Below are positions 19,838 through 32,475 of a stretch of 64,000 nucleotides of DNA, piece after piece. The DNA lies in assembly GCA_021463865.1 (NCBI GenBank), contig JAJTXY010000002.1:1-64000 (forward strand), given 5' to 3'. The notes below the pieces were generated by a model that worked only from the letters and a program-made list of their open reading frames with translations, searched no databases and was not told the DNA's origin. Position 1 is the first letter of the stretch, and each line of letters starts with the position of its first letter. The translations under genes were made by a program, and so were the position numbers. This stretch comes from Anaerolineae bacterium (GTDB lineage: Bacteria > Chloroflexota > Anaerolineae > Aggregatilineales > J027).

Positions 19838-19968
19838 TCATATTTCCCCGTGCTCATCCAATTTTGAACAGTATAGCCTGTTTTGCGTAGCGTATACACG
19901 TTTCATGTTTGCTGTATACTAGAAACGGGGTACTCATTGTTCCATTAATTTACTTACGGGATATGCTC

Positions 19969-22900
19969 ATGAGCGATCAAAATGCAGGACAAGTGATCGG
20001 CGATTACCAGCTTCAAGAATTGCTGGGTGAAGGGGGTATGGGGTCGGTTTACCGTGCAATTGATATTCAGCTTCAGCGTCCGGTTGCCTTGAAACTTATG
20101 CACCCGGAAATCGGACGCCAAGAAAAATTTCGGCAGCGCTTTATCCAAGAAGCCCGCGCCATTGCGATGCTCGACCACCCCAATATCGTGAAGGTTTTCT
20201 CATTCCACGCCGAACAGGGCCTTTTGTATTTGATTATGGAATATGTAGCAACGGGCAGCTTGCGTGGTTATCTTAATCGGATGTACCGCGAAAGCAAATT
20301 TGTCAGTCTCCTAGAGGCCATCGCCTTAATTCGGCAAATCGCCTCCGCATTGGATTATGCCCATCAGCAAGGTATGGTTCACCGCGACATCAAGCCTGAC
20401 AATGTGCTGCTAAAACTTGCCACCAGCACAGGGATTGGCGATACGACTTTTAACGCCCTGCTCACGGATTTTGGCCTTGTCAAAATGGCCGAAAACGCGA
20501 TTTTGCAGACACAGGGCGGGCATCCAATGGGCACACTCCCCTATATGTCGCCAGAGCAGATTAAAGGGGAGGAGGTGGACGGGCGCACCGACCTTTATGC
20601 GTTGGGTGTCATGATGTACGAGTTGATCGTCGGCAAGCTGCCTTTTATGCCGCGCAACATCCTCGAAGCCGCTGAGATGCACATCAAGACCCCGCCCCCG
20701 CAGCCAAGCAGTGTGCGCTCCGGAATTGCGCCCGAACTTGAAGCCATTATCATGAAGGCACTTGCCAAAGAGGTCAATGATCGTTACAAAACTGGACGCG
20801 ACCTGATTTTTGCGCTGCAACGCCTTGATCTAAGCGAAAACGGCAAAGTCACTCTTTTGGACACCCAAGCACGGGCCAGTGACCAACTCGACAGCCTTGG
20901 CACCTATCTAGCATCTATGCCGGGGATGCCGCAGGGGGTCAATGTTGCCATTCCTCAACTGGGAATGCTCACTAGTGATGAATTGGTGATCGTGAAAGAG
21001 GGGGCTGCGCCGGAACGCTATAAACTTTCCAAACAATCGTTGACGATTGGACGGGAAGATCAGGACATCACCCTACCAAGTACCCGTATTTCACGGCTAC
21101 ATGCTCGTATTGATAAACAATCGAACAGCAATTACACCATTACCGACCTCGGCAGCACCAATGGCACATTTTTGGATGGGGCCAAGCTGTTGGCAAATGT
21201 CCCAGAAAAATTAGTCGCAGGTCAGGTCATTAGCATCGGGGAGTATCGGCTCAGTTTGCAGCGGGCAGGCGGCAAAAAAGATACCTTACCAATGGGCCTT
21301 CCCAGTGTTGGCGATGTCCGCGCGGCTGGGCCTTCGGGAACAATTTTAGATGTTCGCGCCGCACCACCCGGCAGTACCCCCCCAGCCTCTACCCAAAAAG
21401 TGACCGTGCAGATGATTCCACCCTCTTTACGTGTGGAACCGGGGATGCGGACCGATGCCCAAATTGAAATCTTTAATCAAAGTGAACTGGTTGAGCATTT
21501 CCGCGTCATGGTGCAAGGTCTCCCAATTGAATGGGTCATTATGCCACAAAGCACCCTCCAACTCATGCCGGGAACACGTGGCACGCTGCCCATTACCATT
21601 CACCCACCGCGCAACCCAAGCGCCACCGCCGGAACGTATAATCTCGGCCTGCGTGTGTCGAGCGAAGAACGTGGCATGGAAATTGCACGTGGGACCGCCA
21701 CACTTTCGGTCAACTCATTCCACAATTTCTCGGTGGATATGTCCCCCAAGCGCGTGCGCAAAAATGGCAAGGTTCGTATCACCGTCAACAATACAGGCAA
21801 TACCCCCGACAGCTATACCATCAGTGGGCGTGACCGCGAAGAAGGCTTAACCTTTATCCCGCCAAGTTCCTCGCTTTCGGTTGGGCCGGGTCGGTCAGAT
21901 ACTGTCGAAATGGAAGTGCGTCCGCGCAAAACAGGCTTATTCGGAGCGCCGACCATTTACCCACTCGAAATGCGGGCGGTTTCCAGCACCAACGATTTCC
22001 ATACGGAAAATGGCGAACTCGCCGCCGCGCCGCTATTGCCTTATTGGATTTTGGGGGCCGCAACCCTACTGTGTACGCTCTGTGTAGCGATTGGCCTGTT
22101 TGCCTATTCGCAGCAGGTCAACAGCAGTAATGACCACAAAACCGAAACCGCGCAGGTCGTCCGCGAAGCCCGAGCCGAACAAACCGCTCTTCAGCAGACC
22201 CAATCCGCTGCAACCACTGGTACGTTTATCGCTGGGCAAAATGCCGCTACTCAAACGGCCTTTTCAGTTACAGGCACAGCCCAGTTGGTGCAAAATTTCG
22301 CCACCCAGACCAGCATCGCCGACCAAAACTCGGCGACCCAAGCCGCGATTTTTGGAAGCCTGACCGCCGCTGCCATCCAGACACAGAATTCCGCGCAGCA
22401 GACACAAAATTTCGTTGCCGGAACCGCGATTGCGCAAACGCAATATGCCGTGCTTACCGCCAATGCCGTTATTGCAGAATCCAATAACATGACCTCTACC
22501 GCCCAGATGCAACACGCCCAAGCCACAGCAACGGCCCAACAAATGGCTGTAGATATGACCATGACTGCTGATTCAATGGCGGCGGGGGCGGCTAATCGTG
22601 AAACAGCCCTGAATTCACCCTATCGGATTGTCTTCTATAATACCGAGTTCGGTGGGGGCGAAGTGGGCGCATTGGCCGACGACAGCACCTATTATTCCTT
22701 GCAGTCTTTTGGGGAAGCGCCTTTGTGGACACATCTCTCAATAGCCCGGAATAGCCGTGCCTTGTTTTATAACCAAGTTTCGGGGGATGCCCTTGTAGGC
22801 ACAATTAATCGTGACGGCTTCCTGACAACCTCGGCACAACCCACATGGTACGCAGGGTGGGCTTTGACCTCCACATCGAATGATTTGACACTCAACTACG

Positions 22901-23463
22901 AATTCTCCACAGGTCAATGGTGGATTGGCTATATCAATGAAACCGATTGGGATGATTTGGATTACTCCGACCCCTATTTTTCCCCTGACTGGACACATAT
23001 CGAACGTTCACCCTATGGCTGGATTTTCTATAGCAGTATATCGGGTGGCGGTGCGGTAGGAAACGTCACAACCAACGACCCCGGCAGTTGTGCTGCAAAT
23101 TGCTTCGTCACCTATTCGGGTTCAATCACATGGCCGACTGGTTTTACGCATATGCTGGCACCTATCGTGGATGGCAATCAATTTGTGTTTTTCTATAATG
23201 CCAGTGATGGGCATTACCAGACCTATCAACTTTTTGTGGATGAAGGGGCACAAACCGCATCCGCCAGCCTGCTGCAAGACAGCATTATTGGTTCGGGTTG
23301 GTCACATATGGTCATGGTCGGGGATCGTGTGATGCTGTATGATCGCATGACTGGAGCGATTCAGATTGGCCGCATCTTGAGCGATGGCACCTATCAAGCC
23401 GAACGCGATTTACCCCCCATCAGCCCGAATTATACGCATGTTACTGTAACCGGCTGGCAGTAA
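19969..23463 (+). CDS. Membrane-bound Ser/Thr protein kinase with FHA domain and sensor-like tail
   Basis: A 1164-residue signalling kinase. The kinase domain (12-285) has GEGGMGSVY, K42 in VALK, HRD (138-140) and DFG (167-169). An FHA phosphothreonine-binding domain covers about 340-430 (GRE, SRLHAR, STNGT). Next come immunoglobulin-like segments (about 480-670, with PPSLRVEPGM and VDMSPKRVRKNGK), one membrane helix (about 687-712), a Thr/Gln/Ala-rich stalk and an outer C-terminal region (about 880-1164) of repeated beta units with aromatic motifs (FFYNASDGHY, WTHLSIARN). ATG 19969 is used because a -10-like TATACT at 19915-19920 would place transcription start after the earlier ATG at 19909. 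The outer part may read ligands; FHA may bind the kinase's own phosphosites. Confidence 0.88.
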   Translation: MSDQNAGQVIGDYQLQELLGEGGMGSVYRAIDIQLQRPVALKLMHPEIGRQEKFRQRFIQEARAIAMLDHPNIVKVFSFHAEQGLLYLIMEYVATGSLRGYLNRMYRESKFVSLLEAIALIRQIASALDYAHQQGMVHRDIKPDNVLLKLATSTGIGDTTFNALLTDFGLVKMAENAILQTQGGHPMGTLPYMSPEQIKGEEVDGRTDLYALGVMMYELIVGKLPFMPRNILEAAEMHIKTPPPQPSSVRSGIAPELEAIIMKALAKEVNDRYKTGRDLIFALQRLDLSENGKVTLLDTQARASDQLDSLGTYLASMPGMPQGVNVAIPQLGMLTSDELVIVKEGAAPERYKLSKQSLTIGREDQDITLPSTRISRLHARIDKQSNSNYTITDLGSTNGTFLDGAKLLANVPEKLVAGQVISIGEYRLSLQRAGGKKDTLPMGLPSVGDVRAAGPSGTILDVRAAPPGSTPPASTQKVTVQMIPPSLRVEPGMRTDAQIEIFNQSELVEHFRVMVQGLPIEWVIMPQSTLQLMPGTRGTLPITIHPPRNPSATAGTYNLGLRVSSEERGMEIARGTATLSVNSFHNFSVDMSPKRVRKNGKVRITVNNTGNTPDSYTISGRDREEGLTFIPPSSSLSVGPGRSDTVEMEVRPRKTGLFGAPTIYPLEMRAVSSTNDFHTENGELAAAPLLPYWILGAATLLCTLCVAIGLFAYSQQVNSSNDHKTETAQVVREARAEQTALQQTQSAATTGTFIAGQNAATQTAFSVTGTAQLVQNFATQTSIADQNSATQAAIFGSLTAAAIQTQNSAQQTQNFVAGTAIAQTQYAVLTANAVIAESNNMTSTAQMQHAQATATAQQMAVDMTMTADSMAAGAANRETALNSPYRIVFYNTEFGGGEVGALADDSTYYSLQSFGEAPLWTHLSIARNSRALFYNQVSGDALVGTINRDGFLTTSAQPTWYAGWALTSTSNDLTLNYEFSTGQWWIGYINETDWDDLDYSDPYFSPDWTHIERSPYGWIFYSSISGGGAVGNVTTNDPGSCAANCFVTYSGSITWPTGFTHMLAPIVDGNQFVFFYNASDGHYQTYQLFVDEGAQTASASLLQDSIIGSGWSHMVMVGDRVMLYDRMTGAIQIGRILSDGTYQAERDLPPISPNYTHVTVTGWQ
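22141..22600 (+). repeat. Thr/Gln/Ala-rich low-complexity stalk coding region
   Basis: Coding bases with imperfect repeats of ATQTA-, AQQTQ- and NSAT-type words, just after the membrane helix of the kinase. It probably forms an extended or coiled outer stalk between membrane and sensor domain. Confidence 0.6.
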
Positions 23464-27548: not shown

Positions 27549-29606
27549 TTGGGAACCGATAACCCGCTTGTGCCGCCATCTCCTGAAAATCAAGACCTTG
27601 AAGAGCCACCAAAGGATGAGGGATCGCTGACGACACCCCCACCCATCGAATTGGAGGCCAAACCAACGGTGGAGGAACGTCGCATCGAGTTTCCATCGCC
27701 GCTGGTCATTGAAGAAGAAACATCACCGCCGATTGACGAAGCTCCTGCTCCTGTTGAAGTCGTGGTTGAGTCACCTAAGCAGTCGCGCCGAGCGGCCAAA
27801 AAAGAAACCAAACGCCTTGTCAAATATCAGAATATTCGGCGGGAACAATTTGAGCTACTTAGTAAATTGCTCGATACACTTGGCAGAGTGGATGATTTCC
27901 CCGAAGCTCAGTTAGAGCAAGTTCGTGATGCTGTGTTCCACGCCGATCACCCTTTTTTGCTGACCCTCGTTGGTCCCTTTAGCTCCGGAAAATCAAGCGT
28001 CATCAATGCTTTGTTGGGGGAGATCGTATTGGAGGTTGGCCCGGTGCCGACCACCGACCACATTGCCATTTTACGATATGGCCCAACCGTGCAAAAGACC
28101 CGCACAGGCGACATTAGCACGGTTTTCTACCCAGCCGAATTATTGGAACGCCTCAGCTTGGTAGACACCCCCGGTTTGGAATCGGTCTTTAAAGAACATG
28201 ATGATTTGACCCAGCGATTTTTGCATCGCGCCGATATTGTGCTGCTAGTGATGATTGCCACCCAAGTATTGACGGCGGGCAATCTGGAATTTATGCAGCA
28301 TCTCAAAGAATATGGCAAGCGCTTGATTATTGTGGTCAACCAAACCGATCTTCTTGAACCCCAAGACCAAGCCACTGTGGAAGATTTTGTCCGCGAGCAG
28401 TCGCGTATCCATTTAGGCATTGAGCCGATTGTATGGCTGGTCTCCTCGAAACTGGCGATGACCGCTTTTGAGACCACTCCCCGCGACGAAATTATTTGGG
28501 ATGAAAGTGGCTTTGCCGACATTGAAGAATATCTTGATGAAACGCTGGATGATGCTGAACGGGTACGCCAAAAATTAGAGACGCCTCTACAAGTTGCCCA
28601 AAATGCCAGCCACGAAGCCCTCAAACATCTGCGAGAGGCCCAAGCCGCTCTCAGTGAACACAAAAAGACGGTAGATAACATCGAGGTCCAAATCCTCGCT
28701 TCCGAAAAAGAACGCCAGAAAATTGTCGAAAAATCATTTACAGATATTGACCGTGAGTGGCAGGCCACCGTCGAAAATGGCTCTAAGGCAATCAGTGAGT
28801 TATTTCATCTCTCACGGGCTGTCGGTCAAGTGGGAGCGGGTTTTGGTGAAATTATCGCGCTCGGGGCGCTGATTCGACGGTTCCGCAAGCAGACCACTGG
28901 TGAAGAAGCCTTTACTAGACACGAAGTCCGCGAGAGTTTGCAGCGTGCCGCCACTGCTGCCGAAAGACTTGGCCCTGCGATTGAAGGCCGTGATTTGGAA
29001 GATTTAGATCATCTGGTGGACTATACCCGCGATCAGATGCGTCGTCTGCCCGATACGCTACAGCAAAAAGTGATTGGCAAGGTGCAGTCGCCCTTAAATT
29101 ATGACCGAAAATCCCTGCGCAATATCCGGGGCGAATTGGATGAATTGGTCAAAAAAGCCAGTGTTTTTGAAACCAATCGCCTTGATCGTGCCCTTCGCAG
29201 CACCATTGTCTTGATTGCCTTTTGGGAACTTTTGGTGATTTTGCTGGCGGTCTTGGTTGCGACAGGGCAATTTAATGCAACTGGCGGGACGGCGACGGGC
29301 ATTATCCTAATTATGGTTCTCGCGGTGGTTGGTTTGTTGTTCTTGCCCATTCGCGGACGGATTTTGCAGGTGACCTATGAAAACCGTATGAATGATATTC
29401 GGGATCGCTACAAAATCATCTTGGAGCGTGCGGCCAAAGAACAGCTTGCTTATGGAACCCAACTTCGGCGTGACAGTGTGTCACCTTTTACACGACTCAT
29501 TAGTACCCAAACTGAAATTACCGATGAATTGAAACAAGAACTTGAAATTCACGAGCGAGCGATTACCCGCTTGCAGCATAGCCTTTCTGCTTTGTTGAAG
29601 GATTAA
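27549..29606 (+). CDS. Bacterial dynamin-like GTPase (first of a pair)
   Basis: A 685-residue dynamin-superfamily protein expected to bind or reshape membranes. An acidic, proline-rich tail (1-80) precedes the GTPase domain: G1 GPFSSGKSS (142-150), the G2 Thr in PTTD, G3 DTPG (206-209) and G4 NQTD (264-267). A long helical middle region follows, then two close membrane helices (LIAFWELLVILLAVLVATG and GIILIMVLAVVGLLFLP) and a C-terminal helix. Starts at TTG 27549 with GGCAGGA upstream. The second dynamin gene begins 5 bases after its stop, so the two are translated together and may form a hetero-oligomer, as known for some bacterial dynamin pairs. Confidence 0.88.
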   Translation: MGTDNPLVPPSPENQDLEEPPKDEGSLTTPPPIELEAKPTVEERRIEFPSPLVIEEETSPPIDEAPAPVEVVVESPKQSRRAAKKETKRLVKYQNIRREQFELLSKLLDTLGRVDDFPEAQLEQVRDAVFHADHPFLLTLVGPFSSGKSSVINALLGEIVLEVGPVPTTDHIAILRYGPTVQKTRTGDISTVFYPAELLERLSLVDTPGLESVFKEHDDLTQRFLHRADIVLLVMIATQVLTAGNLEFMQHLKEYGKRLIIVVNQTDLLEPQDQATVEDFVREQSRIHLGIEPIVWLVSSKLAMTAFETTPRDEIIWDESGFADIEEYLDETLDDAERVRQKLETPLQVAQNASHEALKHLREAQAALSEHKKTVDNIEVQILASEKERQKIVEKSFTDIDREWQATVENGSKAISELFHLSRAVGQVGAGFGEIIALGALIRRFRKQTTGEEAFTRHEVRESLQRAATAAERLGPAIEGRDLEDLDHLVDYTRDQMRRLPDTLQQKVIGKVQSPLNYDRKSLRNIRGELDELVKKASVFETNRLDRALRSTIVLIAFWELLVILLAVLVATGQFNATGGTATGIILIMVLAVVGLLFLPIRGRILQVTYENRMNDIRDRYKIILERAAKEQLAYGTQLRRDSVSPFTRLISTQTEITDELKQELEIHERAITRLQHSLSALLKD

Positions 29607-29611
29607 CGACC

Positions 29612-31414
29612 TTGACCAATATCGTACTTGAAGGCCCGATTGTCCAAATCCGGGAACGCGAAGTTAAACTGTTGTTTGATCTTGCCGAACGGATAGCGAC
29701 GTTTGGTGGGGACTCTCCCGAAGATAAAAGCCGTCTCATGCAGAGTGCCAATGATCTGCGTGATATGTTTTTCCTTGTGGTGGTGGTAGGTGAGTTTAAT
29801 GCCGGAAAATCCACATTTATCAACGCTCTGCTGGGCGATGAATTGCTGCCAATGGGGATTACACCCACGACGGAAGTCATTGAACTTATCCGTTATAGTG
29901 ACCGCAAGAGCAAAGAGCCAAAACTTCGGGAGCAGGATTCAATTCGAGAATGGACACATCCCAATACGGGTGCCCCCGGCGTGGCGATTGTGGACTCGCC
30001 CGGTACTGGATCGGTGTTTGCCAAACATGAACGCATTGCCAAAGGGTTCCTTAGCCGCAGTGACCTCGTCATTTTTGTGATGTCCGCCAAACGTGCCTTC
30101 GCGCAGACTGAGCGCCTCTACCTCGAATTGGCTCGTGACTATGGGAAGAAGGTCATTCTGGTTATCAATCAGGTGGATTTGCTAGACAAAAAAGACCTCA
30201 AAGAAGTAGTCAGCTTCGTAAAGCAGCAGGTTTCAGAATTAGTCAATCTTGACCCGCCGATTTTCACCGTCTCCGCCAAAAAAGCCTTGCAGGGCAAGCG
30301 TGGCGGGGGTCTCTTTAGCGGTGGTGGTAGTGATGACACGGGCATGAATAACCTGCAAGATTATCTGCGCGACACGTTTACCCGCGTCCCCCCCGCCAAG
30401 CAAAAATTGGTGGCTCAAGTAGATTTTGCTGATAGCATTATGCGAAAATATCAAGGCAAGGTGGGCGAGAAACTTAGCTTAATTGGGGCTGATCGCCAAT
30501 ATGCCGAACAGTTACGTGCCGAACTTGAAAAACAGGCCGAGTTGCTGGCAGAACAGCTTAATACCACCATGCGTGAGCTAGATCGTATTTTTGATACCTT
30601 GCTCAATCGTGGGCGTGATTTTGTCAATAAACATCTGACGTTAGGACGTTCACTGCGACCCCCGGATCGAGAGGCTATGCGTCAAAAATTTGAAAAAGAG
30701 GTCATTGGAACCTCACTCGACCAGATCAGCCGCCTTTCGGAGGATTATGTCAGCGCGGTGGTGGATAGCAGCCGTCGTTATTGGCGCAGCATTATTGACC
30801 GCCTGAACAAGCTAGAGGCATTGATTGAGCAAGAGGTCGGGGGCGTGGATGCTGCCAGTTATGCCGATCAACGCGCTGCTTTGCAGCAAGCCATTGCGAT
30901 TGCCGATACTGAACTCAAGACCTATACTGAAGATAATCTTGCCGAAAGCCTGCGCGATACCTTTGCCACCAATATGTTCGGCTTTACGGCCAGCGTCACG
31001 GGTTTGCTCGGTGGGATTGCGGCCATTATTGTGGGTAGCGCCGCCCCCGGTGCGATCACCGCGACGGTTGTGGGTGTGTTGGGTGCGATGGTGGTTGGCC
31101 CGGTCATGGCGGTGGGTGGCATGGGCGGGGTACTGCTCTATGGTCGCAAACTGCGCCACGACGCCATTGATGAACTCGAAACCCGTCTGGAAAAACTGCG
31201 CGACAGTTATCGCCAATCATTGGTAGACATAACCGATAGAGAACGGGCACGGTTGCTGCAATACGGCCAGCAAATCTTATCTCCTGTTTTTAGCCATCTC
31301 GAAGTCATTGCCAAGAAATACCAAGATCAAAAAGTCGCACTCGAGGAATTACAAAAAGTGTCGGCGGATTTGCGTCGAGAAATTGATGCGCTGCAAGTAA
31401 CAATTGAATATTAG
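29612..31414 (+). CDS. Bacterial dynamin-like GTPase (second of a pair)
   Basis: A 600-residue dynamin-like GTPase with G1 GEFNAGKST (60-68), the G2 Thr in TPTTE, G3 DSPG (128-131) and G4 NQVD (186-189). It carries a glycine-rich loop (GGGLFSGGGSDD), long helical stalk segments and a hydrophobic paddle-like stretch (FTASVTGLLGGIAAIIVG and TVVGVLGAMVVGPVMAVGG) before a final coiled coil. The N-terminal tail of the first protein is missing here, and the two share little beyond the GTPase, so they are probably old paralogues with different roles. Starts at TTG 29612; GAAGG is present just before it. Confidence 0.9.
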   Translation: MTNIVLEGPIVQIREREVKLLFDLAERIATFGGDSPEDKSRLMQSANDLRDMFFLVVVVGEFNAGKSTFINALLGDELLPMGITPTTEVIELIRYSDRKSKEPKLREQDSIREWTHPNTGAPGVAIVDSPGTGSVFAKHERIAKGFLSRSDLVIFVMSAKRAFAQTERLYLELARDYGKKVILVINQVDLLDKKDLKEVVSFVKQQVSELVNLDPPIFTVSAKKALQGKRGGGLFSGGGSDDTGMNNLQDYLRDTFTRVPPAKQKLVAQVDFADSIMRKYQGKVGEKLSLIGADRQYAEQLRAELEKQAELLAEQLNTTMRELDRIFDTLLNRGRDFVNKHLTLGRSLRPPDREAMRQKFEKEVIGTSLDQISRLSEDYVSAVVDSSRRYWRSIIDRLNKLEALIEQEVGGVDAASYADQRAALQQAIAIADTELKTYTEDNLAESLRDTFATNMFGFTASVTGLLGGIAAIIVGSAAPGAITATVVGVLGAMVVGPVMAVGGMGGVLLYGRKLRHDAIDELETRLEKLRDSYRQSLVDITDRERARLLQYGQQILSPVFSHLEVIAKKYQDQKVALEELQKVSADLRREIDALQVTIEY

Positions 31415-32070: not shown

Positions 32071-32475
32071 CTAGAACGGAATATCTTCCGGTTCATCGCT
32101 GCCACTATAGCCACCACCATAGTCCTCACCTGACCCGCTGCGTTCGCCTTTAGAACTCAGGAACTTAACGTCACGGGCTGTAATTTCAATGCTTACCTGT
32201 GTTTGACCATCGTTGCCTGTGTAAGTCCGAACATCAAGTTCCCCAACAACTAGGACCAGCATTCCCTTATGGACATATTGGCTGCAAACTTCTGCAAGTT
32301 GCCTCCACGCAGAAACACGAAACCATGTGGTTTTTTTCTGCTTCTCATGTGTATTCTTATCGGTGATGTTTTTGTTTACAGCTACACTGAAAGAGCATAC
32401 GCCAGCCCCACTTGGGGTATAGCGTAATTCCGGGTCTTTTCCAACATTTCCGATAATGGTGATTTGTTGATACAC
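32071..32475 (-). CDS. ssb: Single-stranded DNA-binding protein
   Basis: Coats single-stranded DNA in replication and repair. The OB fold is seen in MYQQITIIGNVGKDPELRYTPSG, CSFSVAVNK, TTWFRVSAWRQLAEVC and the following GxxVxVxG strands (VLVVGELDVRTYTG). The protein ends in a glycine-rich linker and the acidic tip EDIPF used to recruit partner proteins. The 134-residue size is in the small range for bacterial SSB. It starts at GTG 32475 with AAAGGA upstream, has its own promoter (32533-32561) and its own terminator. It may be a stand-alone gene rather than part of the cheA operon next to it. Confidence 0.95.
   Translation of the reverse strand: MYQQITIIGNVGKDPELRYTPSGAGVCSFSVAVNKNITDKNTHEKQKKTTWFRVSAWRQLAEVCSQYVHKGMLVLVVGELDVRTYTGNDGQTQVSIEITARDVKFLSSKGERSGSGEDYGGGYSGSDEPEDIPF

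Follow-up and report, generated by a model that had tools for sequence, protein, structure and literature searches.

A conserved side-by-side pair of diverged dynamin-like GTPase genes in an order of Anaerolineae

Results

Two dynamin-like genes five bases apart

The window analyzed here is the whole 64,000-nucleotide stretch of an Anaerolineae bacterium genome (contig JAJTXY010000002.1, positions 1 to 64,000 of the forward strand), and its subject is a pair of adjacent forward-strand genes, A and B, each encoding a dynamin-like GTPase. Gene A (27549..29606) encodes 685 amino acids and gene B (29612..31414) encodes 600; both start at TTG, and both open reading frames (ORFs) are open over their full span. 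The two proteins match the Pfam family Dynamin_N (A, E 5.3e-25, 89 bits; B, E 1.1e-24, 88 bits; cutoff, 27 bits) and are 24% identical to each other over 574 aligned columns (E 7e-36, single comparison). The initial annotation had described them as two divergent members of the dynamin superfamily with both G1-G4 sets intact, and this description holds: by sequence, the presence of the Dynamin_N GTPase domain with G1 to G4 makes them members of that superfamily. The remaining Dynamin_N matches in the same genome (E ≤ 0.001) are far weaker, the best being a 343-amino-acid frame at 3.7e-6.

The G1 motif (P-loop) of A, GPFSSGKSS (residues 142 to 150; 27972..27998), differs from the GEFN form seen in B (GEFNAGKST, residues 60 to 68; 29789..29815) and in single-gene relatives from other Chloroflexota (singletons, described below). 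G2 is PTT, G3 is DTPG in A and DSPG in B, and G4 is NQTD in A (residues 264 to 267; 28338..28349) and NQVD in B. All four motifs are kept in aligned relatives of both proteins. The hydrophobic regions noted at the outset are present as two late stretches in each protein. Those of A (residues 553 to 601; 29205..29351; stretches 553 to 571 and 583 to 601) probably form a transmembrane hairpin, and the Gly-rich stretches of B (residues 456 to 504; 30977..31123; stretches 456 to 474 and 486 to 504) probably form a membrane paddle. In both proteins, these stretches fall late in the helical part.

A stops at 29606, and the spacer to the start of B at 29612 (29607-29611) is indeed five bases long, as first reported. 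Within the junction (29598..29611), an AAGGA at 29598-29602 lies nine bases 5' of the TTG of B and overlaps the last codons of A; it may act as a ribosome-binding site, and its position inside the end of A fits translational coupling. The named close loci belong to four Chloroflexi/Anaerolineae metagenome assemblies (CFX5, CFX10, MAG_03, and a groundwater metagenome-assembled genome) and are 84 to 96% identical to A. The names CFX5 or CFX10 reportedly turn up in papers on anammox.

The pair is linked and co-inherited across the order

A scan of 101 genomes of the order with A and B as queries (E ≤ 1e-10) gave matches in 70, whereas the remaining 31 had no match to either gene. When the count is limited to genomes with a completeness of 90% or more and a contamination of 5% or less, 46 of 69 have a match. 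In 61 of the 70 matching genomes, the genes are direct neighbors on one strand, with A preceding B, so that the pair is conserved side by side in relatives, a point on which the initial annotation had asked for a check. These 61 comprise 59 genomes with fewer than 300 bases between the matched pieces, G308, assigned by its ORFs, and G364, in which an A fragment stands beside B. The order of the genes is kept with an insert or a longer gap in four genomes (G313, G341, G355, and G305), three are cut at contig ends (G330, G336, and G379), and two (G306 and G346) keep both genes unlinked, on different contigs and with neither gene near an end. Loss of linkage in relatives, together with a lack of interaction between the proteins, had been named as evidence that would refute the proposed hetero-oligomer; on linkage, what is found is the same contig, strand, and order in 65 of 70 genomes, with none of the 65 inverted. 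The sole genome showing just one gene is G330, where B reaches the contig end. In family f83, both genes are absent from all nine listed genomes.

Around the pair, four regions of the same genus are syntenic with the window. Outside the genus (20 regions from 18 genomes), no other tested window gene was found near the pair, save a CheA-like match of 35.6% in one region (L131). Recurrent neighbors among these 20 regions are several within family f2 and several within family f84, and two ORFs recur across families: a 271-amino-acid ligase-like ORF (five regions, in f88, f2, and f1, not always adjacent) and a 102-amino-acid ORF (three regions). The most recurrent neighbor is present in at most 5 of the 20 regions, versus 20 of 20 for A or B. 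This persistence of the linkage despite turnover of the neighbors argues for selection on the pair, and a pairing by accident of local synteny was rejected because the other window genes are not around the pair outside the genus. Long open frames in G315 and G336 had suggested an A-B fusion; this was also rejected, as the ORFs are separate, and no fusion was seen in the regions examined.

The inserts between A and B are of some interest in themselves. A two-gene HEC-01 defense candidate (AAA_21 ATPase and DUF4276) stands there in G313 (L135:10968-12781), where the call rests on a scan of that copy, and in G341 (L136:9220-11052), where it was made by similarity. The HEC-01 genes are missing from G319, a member of that genus in which about 165 bases separate the A and B pieces, and they therefore look like a recent insertion into the operon. 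G355 carries a putative Uma2-type nuclease (PADLOC PDC-S03; L137:9835-10377) in the same position. In four genomes belonging to a single genus (L135:14599-15414, L136:12881-13696, L289:1780-2595, and L290:1249-2064), the 271-amino-acid ligase-like ORF, by eye a lipoate ligase, starts about a dozen bases or less from where B ends.

Relatives outside the order are mostly single genes

A scan of 301 Chloroflexota genomes (E ≤ 1e-20) gave matches in 63, of which 61 have one place answering both queries and two (G000 and G240) have two places. With three to four candidates scored per genome at this threshold, the scan could have overlooked a second, distant dynamin in genomes counted as singletons. 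The singletons are the closest relatives outside the order, with 26 to 43% identity and similar size. A second scan of 199 genomes of the class with PF00350 (E ≤ 1e-8) gave matches in at least 95, and among the matches listed, an adjacent gene pair outside the order occurs in two genomes of family f94 (G405 and G431). A restriction of the pair to the order was therefore rejected, since f94 has an apparently orthologous pair.

A 58-row tree places A, B, and the singletons each on one side of a branch (100/100). The downstream gene of f94 groups with B (support, 100/99), and its upstream gene groups with A at a support of 90/78, which is not decisive. A tree with five outgroup rows (four from plasmids and one Chloroflexota paralogue, L166; end branches of 2.5 to 3.1) gave no root and no order of branching among A, B plus the downstream gene of f94, the singletons, and the upstream gene of f94; a position of the singletons outside the duplication is suggested instead by G4 and by where pairs occur. 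By eye, the groupings of genomes within A and within B are largely the same, as joint vertical descent would produce. One tandem duplication, probably before f94 and the order separated, would explain these sequences most simply, with singletons taken to represent the state before it.

Dynamin genes were also found on other replicons and in other forms. A search of phages with A gave two partial matches, and a phage origin was rejected on this result. On plasmids, tblastn of B (limit, 0.01) returned 55 records, none covering 80% of the query (best shown, E 1e-15 and 2e-11). On plasmids of Lysinibacillus (two), Calditerrivibrio, and Ruegeria (L151, L152, L154, and L155), two or three genes of the dynamin family follow one another, and those of Ruegeria adjoin kinase, FHA, and phosphatase genes. 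An additional Dynamin_N protein, in a frame of about 830 to 920 amino acids, is present in some genomes of the class (G144:C34, G540:C75, G563:C33, and others of family f9); one such protein, L162, has no match above 40 bits to the A, B, or singleton profiles.

Probable divergence of A, with B staying singleton-like

Motifs and hydrophobicity were counted in 41 A and 40 B proteins from the 70 genomes of the order and in 42 of the 61 singletons, mostly from best-scoring loci. In G4, all 42 singletons have the K of NKxD, whereas every one of the 41 A and the 40 B proteins has Q at this position; one A has S in place of N. All four f94 genes likewise have Q, one of them with S for N. The P-loop of A reads G[P/A]F[S/G/N], with N in 7 of 41, versus GEFN in the 39 B proteins reaching this position and in the 42 singletons (one with Y for F). 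The residues following G3 also separate the groups: DTPGL[E/D]S in A, D[T/S]PG[T/S]GS in B, and DTPG[T/V]NA in singletons.

The two late stretches have a mean hydrophobicity of 2.70 and 2.80 in 41 A proteins (range, 2.29 to 3.29), 2.02 and 2.04 in 38 B proteins (range, 1.64 to 2.41), and 1.99 and 1.88 in the 42 singletons (range, 1.27 to 2.37), so that the range of A barely overlaps those of B and the singletons. The upstream gene of f94 keeps GEFN, and its hydrophobicity is intermediate (1.49 and 2.38; 1.87 and 2.29).

Constraint is also unequal. The ratio of nonsynonymous to synonymous substitution rates (dN/dS) is 0.005 to 0.017 for B in three comparisons and 0.053 to 0.068 for A including its tail, with eight neighbors at 0.018 to 0.101; for a ninth, a universal stress protein, two of the three values are 0.01 or lower. 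By these sequence measures, A appears to have acquired its strongly hydrophobic hairpin and to have changed its P-loop, whereas B seems to have stayed singleton-like under very strong constraint. A would thus be the membrane-anchored, more variable subunit and B the strongly constrained core.

The acidic, proline-rich tail that the initial annotation attributed to the first protein is real and lies at its N terminus (residues 1 to 75; 27549..27773), with 19 D/E, 4 K/R, and 16 P. Its dN/dS of 0.20 to 0.23 against L009 to L011, with equal gene length, indicates that it reads as coding, and a predicted local distance difference test score (pLDDT) of 26 to 35 across residues 1 to 80 predicts disorder. 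Such a tail is present in 7 of 41 A proteins, namely, five of the same genus and two of one sister genus (G342 and G326); G337, of the same family, is without it. Seven other A ORFs are longer at the N terminus and are neither acidic nor proline-rich, their start perhaps having been chosen too early, and 27 of the 41 A proteins have a P-loop that starts no later than residue 75. A role of the tail as a general pairing element was rejected, since 34 of 41 A proteins have no acidic, proline-rich one. The tail does not define the pair; it may tune localization within the genus.

Branch rates of A and B covary

Four control families were sought in 25 genomes, 22 of which were used. RecA was set aside as a control, with two or more copies in 11 of 25 genomes and none in one, as was SecY (found in 24 of 25), for which wrong frames had been picked. 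The genomes left out were G312 (short RpoB) and G351 and G362 (no SecA). With RpoB and SecA held, the partial rank correlation of A and B branch rates is 0.59 (p 6e-5; 41 branches, 22 genomes), and the correlation of A or B with a control is 0.05 to 0.33. The test is small and speaks, at the level of sequence, of shared constraint rather than contact.

Structure models made from ten sequences have a mean pLDDT of 60.3 for B and 50.4 for A. These low-confidence models contain long helices, along with the late hydrophobic stretches seen in the sequence. The best Foldseek matches of both models are BDLP1 (2j69) and the CjDLP pair (5oxf and 5owv), with template modeling (TM) scores of at most 0.21 and identities of 12 to 17%, so that fold supports the placement in the dynamin family weakly. 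By sequence, the closest solved structures are the Campylobacter pair (5owv) and Nostoc BDLP1 (2j68).

Discussion

A probable two-subunit dynamin machine

Homology, intact motifs, linkage, co-inheritance, the pattern of divergence, and the rate correlation together form the basis for the reading favored here, in which A and B are probably two subunits of one heteromeric membrane-remodeling dynamin machine, tandem duplicated and encoded by a two-gene operon, that tethers or seals membrane. Shared presence and absence, the retention of both genes in two genomes where they are unlinked, and the correlated rates favor a functional partnership. The direction of the duplication, the operon, physical contact, the membrane topology, and a tethering or repair role are inferred. 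In such a scheme, a single dynamin-like gene of the kind found in other Chloroflexota would have given rise to A and B by tandem duplication, and the two would be coexpressed from one operon, B probably being translated from a ribosome-binding site that lies within the last codons of A. A would be anchored in the cytoplasmic membrane by its hydrophobic hairpin, and B would bind lipid through its Gly-rich paddle. GTP-dependent contacts between the G domains and helical stalks of A and B could then tether or seal the membrane at sites of damage or curvature, like CjDLP1/2 and the two-headed DynA. Physical hetero-oligomerization, action on membranes, and protection of the envelope or against phage would follow by analogy with those proteins.

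Several observations weigh against this reading. The rate test has two controls, which are themselves correlated (0.66), and a single tree made from the four proteins together; A, moreover, shows some correlation with SecA (0.33; p 0.03). The poor structure models carry no information on an interface, and a CjDLP1-like assembly domain was not found in A or B. The 31 double absences among the 101 genomes are weak evidence, since co-loss of neighbors by one deletion is expected. Furthermore, each protein could work alone, judging from the two intact P-loops, and the 61 singleton genomes suggest that one gene of the family can suffice elsewhere.

In the strongest of the alternatives, A and B are two independent homo-oligomeric dynamins with separate membrane tasks, merely cotranscribed after a tandem duplication. 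The complete G1 to G4 sets of both proteins, the phylum scan outside the order, in which A and B find the same single place per genome, the unlinked genes of G306 and G346, and the strongly unequal constraint would all agree with it. However, the linkage outlasts the other synteny of the window, only G330 of 70 genomes shows one gene, with B there running to the contig end, and the rates of A and B covary; independence is considered unlikely. A cell division or septation pair serving filamentous growth, like DynA and DynB of Streptomyces, which are reported to interact (PMC6104087), is more doubtful still: inheritance is largely vertical by eye, as would suit such a role, but no recurrent neighbor resembled a division gene in the unannotated regions read by eye, and both genes are absent from 31 of the 101 genomes of the order, including all nine listed f83 genomes. 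Least probable is a primarily antiphage operon with LeoA-like action or DynA-like lysis delay, toward which PADLOC matches to LeoA and LeoBC (62 to 75 bits), the delay of lysis reported for Bacillus subtilis DynA (PMC8844932), and the candidate defense genes between A and B in three genomes (HEC-01 in G313 and G341, PDC-S03/Uma2 in G355) point, but which fits poorly with the similar shapes of the A and B trees and the very low dN/dS of B, unlike fast, patchy defense genes, and with a PADLOC scan of seven window neighbors, in which just a methyltransferase matched, in its generic domain.

For the two-subunit machine, a more specific history can be put forward tentatively. The order may record how, within one phylum, a one-gene dynamin that presumably formed homo-oligomers turned into one with two obligate subunits. 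After the duplication, both copies would have changed G4 from NKxD to NQxD; A alone would then have become membrane anchored, its P-loop remodeled from GEFN to G[P/A]F[S/G/N], and B would have remained strongly constrained and singleton-like. The f94 pair would then represent an intermediate stage. These genes bear on why so many bacterial dynamins are paired: singletons, the early-branching pair of f94, and a co-inherited pair that has diverged all occur in one phylum, which makes the origin of the partnership testable by in vitro comparison of the three.

Other features of the window

Upstream of the pair, 19909-23463 encodes a large protein that, by eye, resembles Ser/Thr kinases; one part of it is FHA-like, and a long stretch is rich in Thr, Ala, and Gln. 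The SSB gene at 32071-32475 is 79% identical in L009 and L010 versus 98% in L011; its close neighbors there are 88 to 100% identical, a possible allele replacement.

Comparison with known dynamin pairs

Paired bacterial dynamins of this sort are already known elsewhere, and most bacterial dynamin genes are reported to be paired in operons (PMC6104087). Little was found on Chloroflexota dynamins in full-text searches that reached few subscription journals; what they returned concerned, judging by title, algal blooms and division in Streptomyces.

The defense-related LeoA and LeoBC of PADLOC have weak similarity to A and B across most of their length, and both proteins fall below the cutoff of the LeoA/HP0731 family (NF041922; 48.3 bits for A and 23.2 for B versus 325). 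The Chloroflexota singletons have a similar size and similar G motifs, except for G4, which is NKxD and not NQxD; they occupy one place per genome at the threshold used and have a Gly-rich stretch like that of B, without the hydrophobic hairpin of A. Bacillus DynA (NCBIfam NF052648), which is described as acting in membrane protection and lysis delay (PMC8844932), resembles A and B in bringing two dynamin units together and is their best NCBIfam model (55 bits for A and 64 for B); it is one fused, two-headed chain with a cutoff of 1600 bits, whereas A and B are separate ORFs.

Tandem A and Tandem B of cyanobacteria are, like A and B, two diverged dynamins in tandem, for which hetero-oligomerization has been proposed (PMC5827413). 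Nostoc BDLP1 (PDB 2J69) is a Tandem B protein and the best fold match of both the A and B models. As the relatives of A and B are Chloroflexota singletons, the tandem of the window looks independent of the cyanobacterial duplication.

A close parallel is Cj-DLP1/Cj-DLP2 of Campylobacter (PDB 5OWV and 5OXF), which is shown to form a hetero-tetramer and is encoded by side-by-side dynamin genes of one operon (PMC6104087). Among solved structures, it ranks first by sequence (5owv_A) and second by fold (5oxf_A) for A and B, which share with it the arrangement as a conserved side-by-side gene pair. In both systems, one partner has an N-terminal extension; that of Cj-DLP1 is described as a 119-amino-acid globular assembly domain (PMC6104087), whereas that of A is predicted to be disordered and is missing from 34 of 41 A proteins. 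By analogy, the pair in the window would most likely work like the Cj-DLP, Tandem A/B, and DynA systems.

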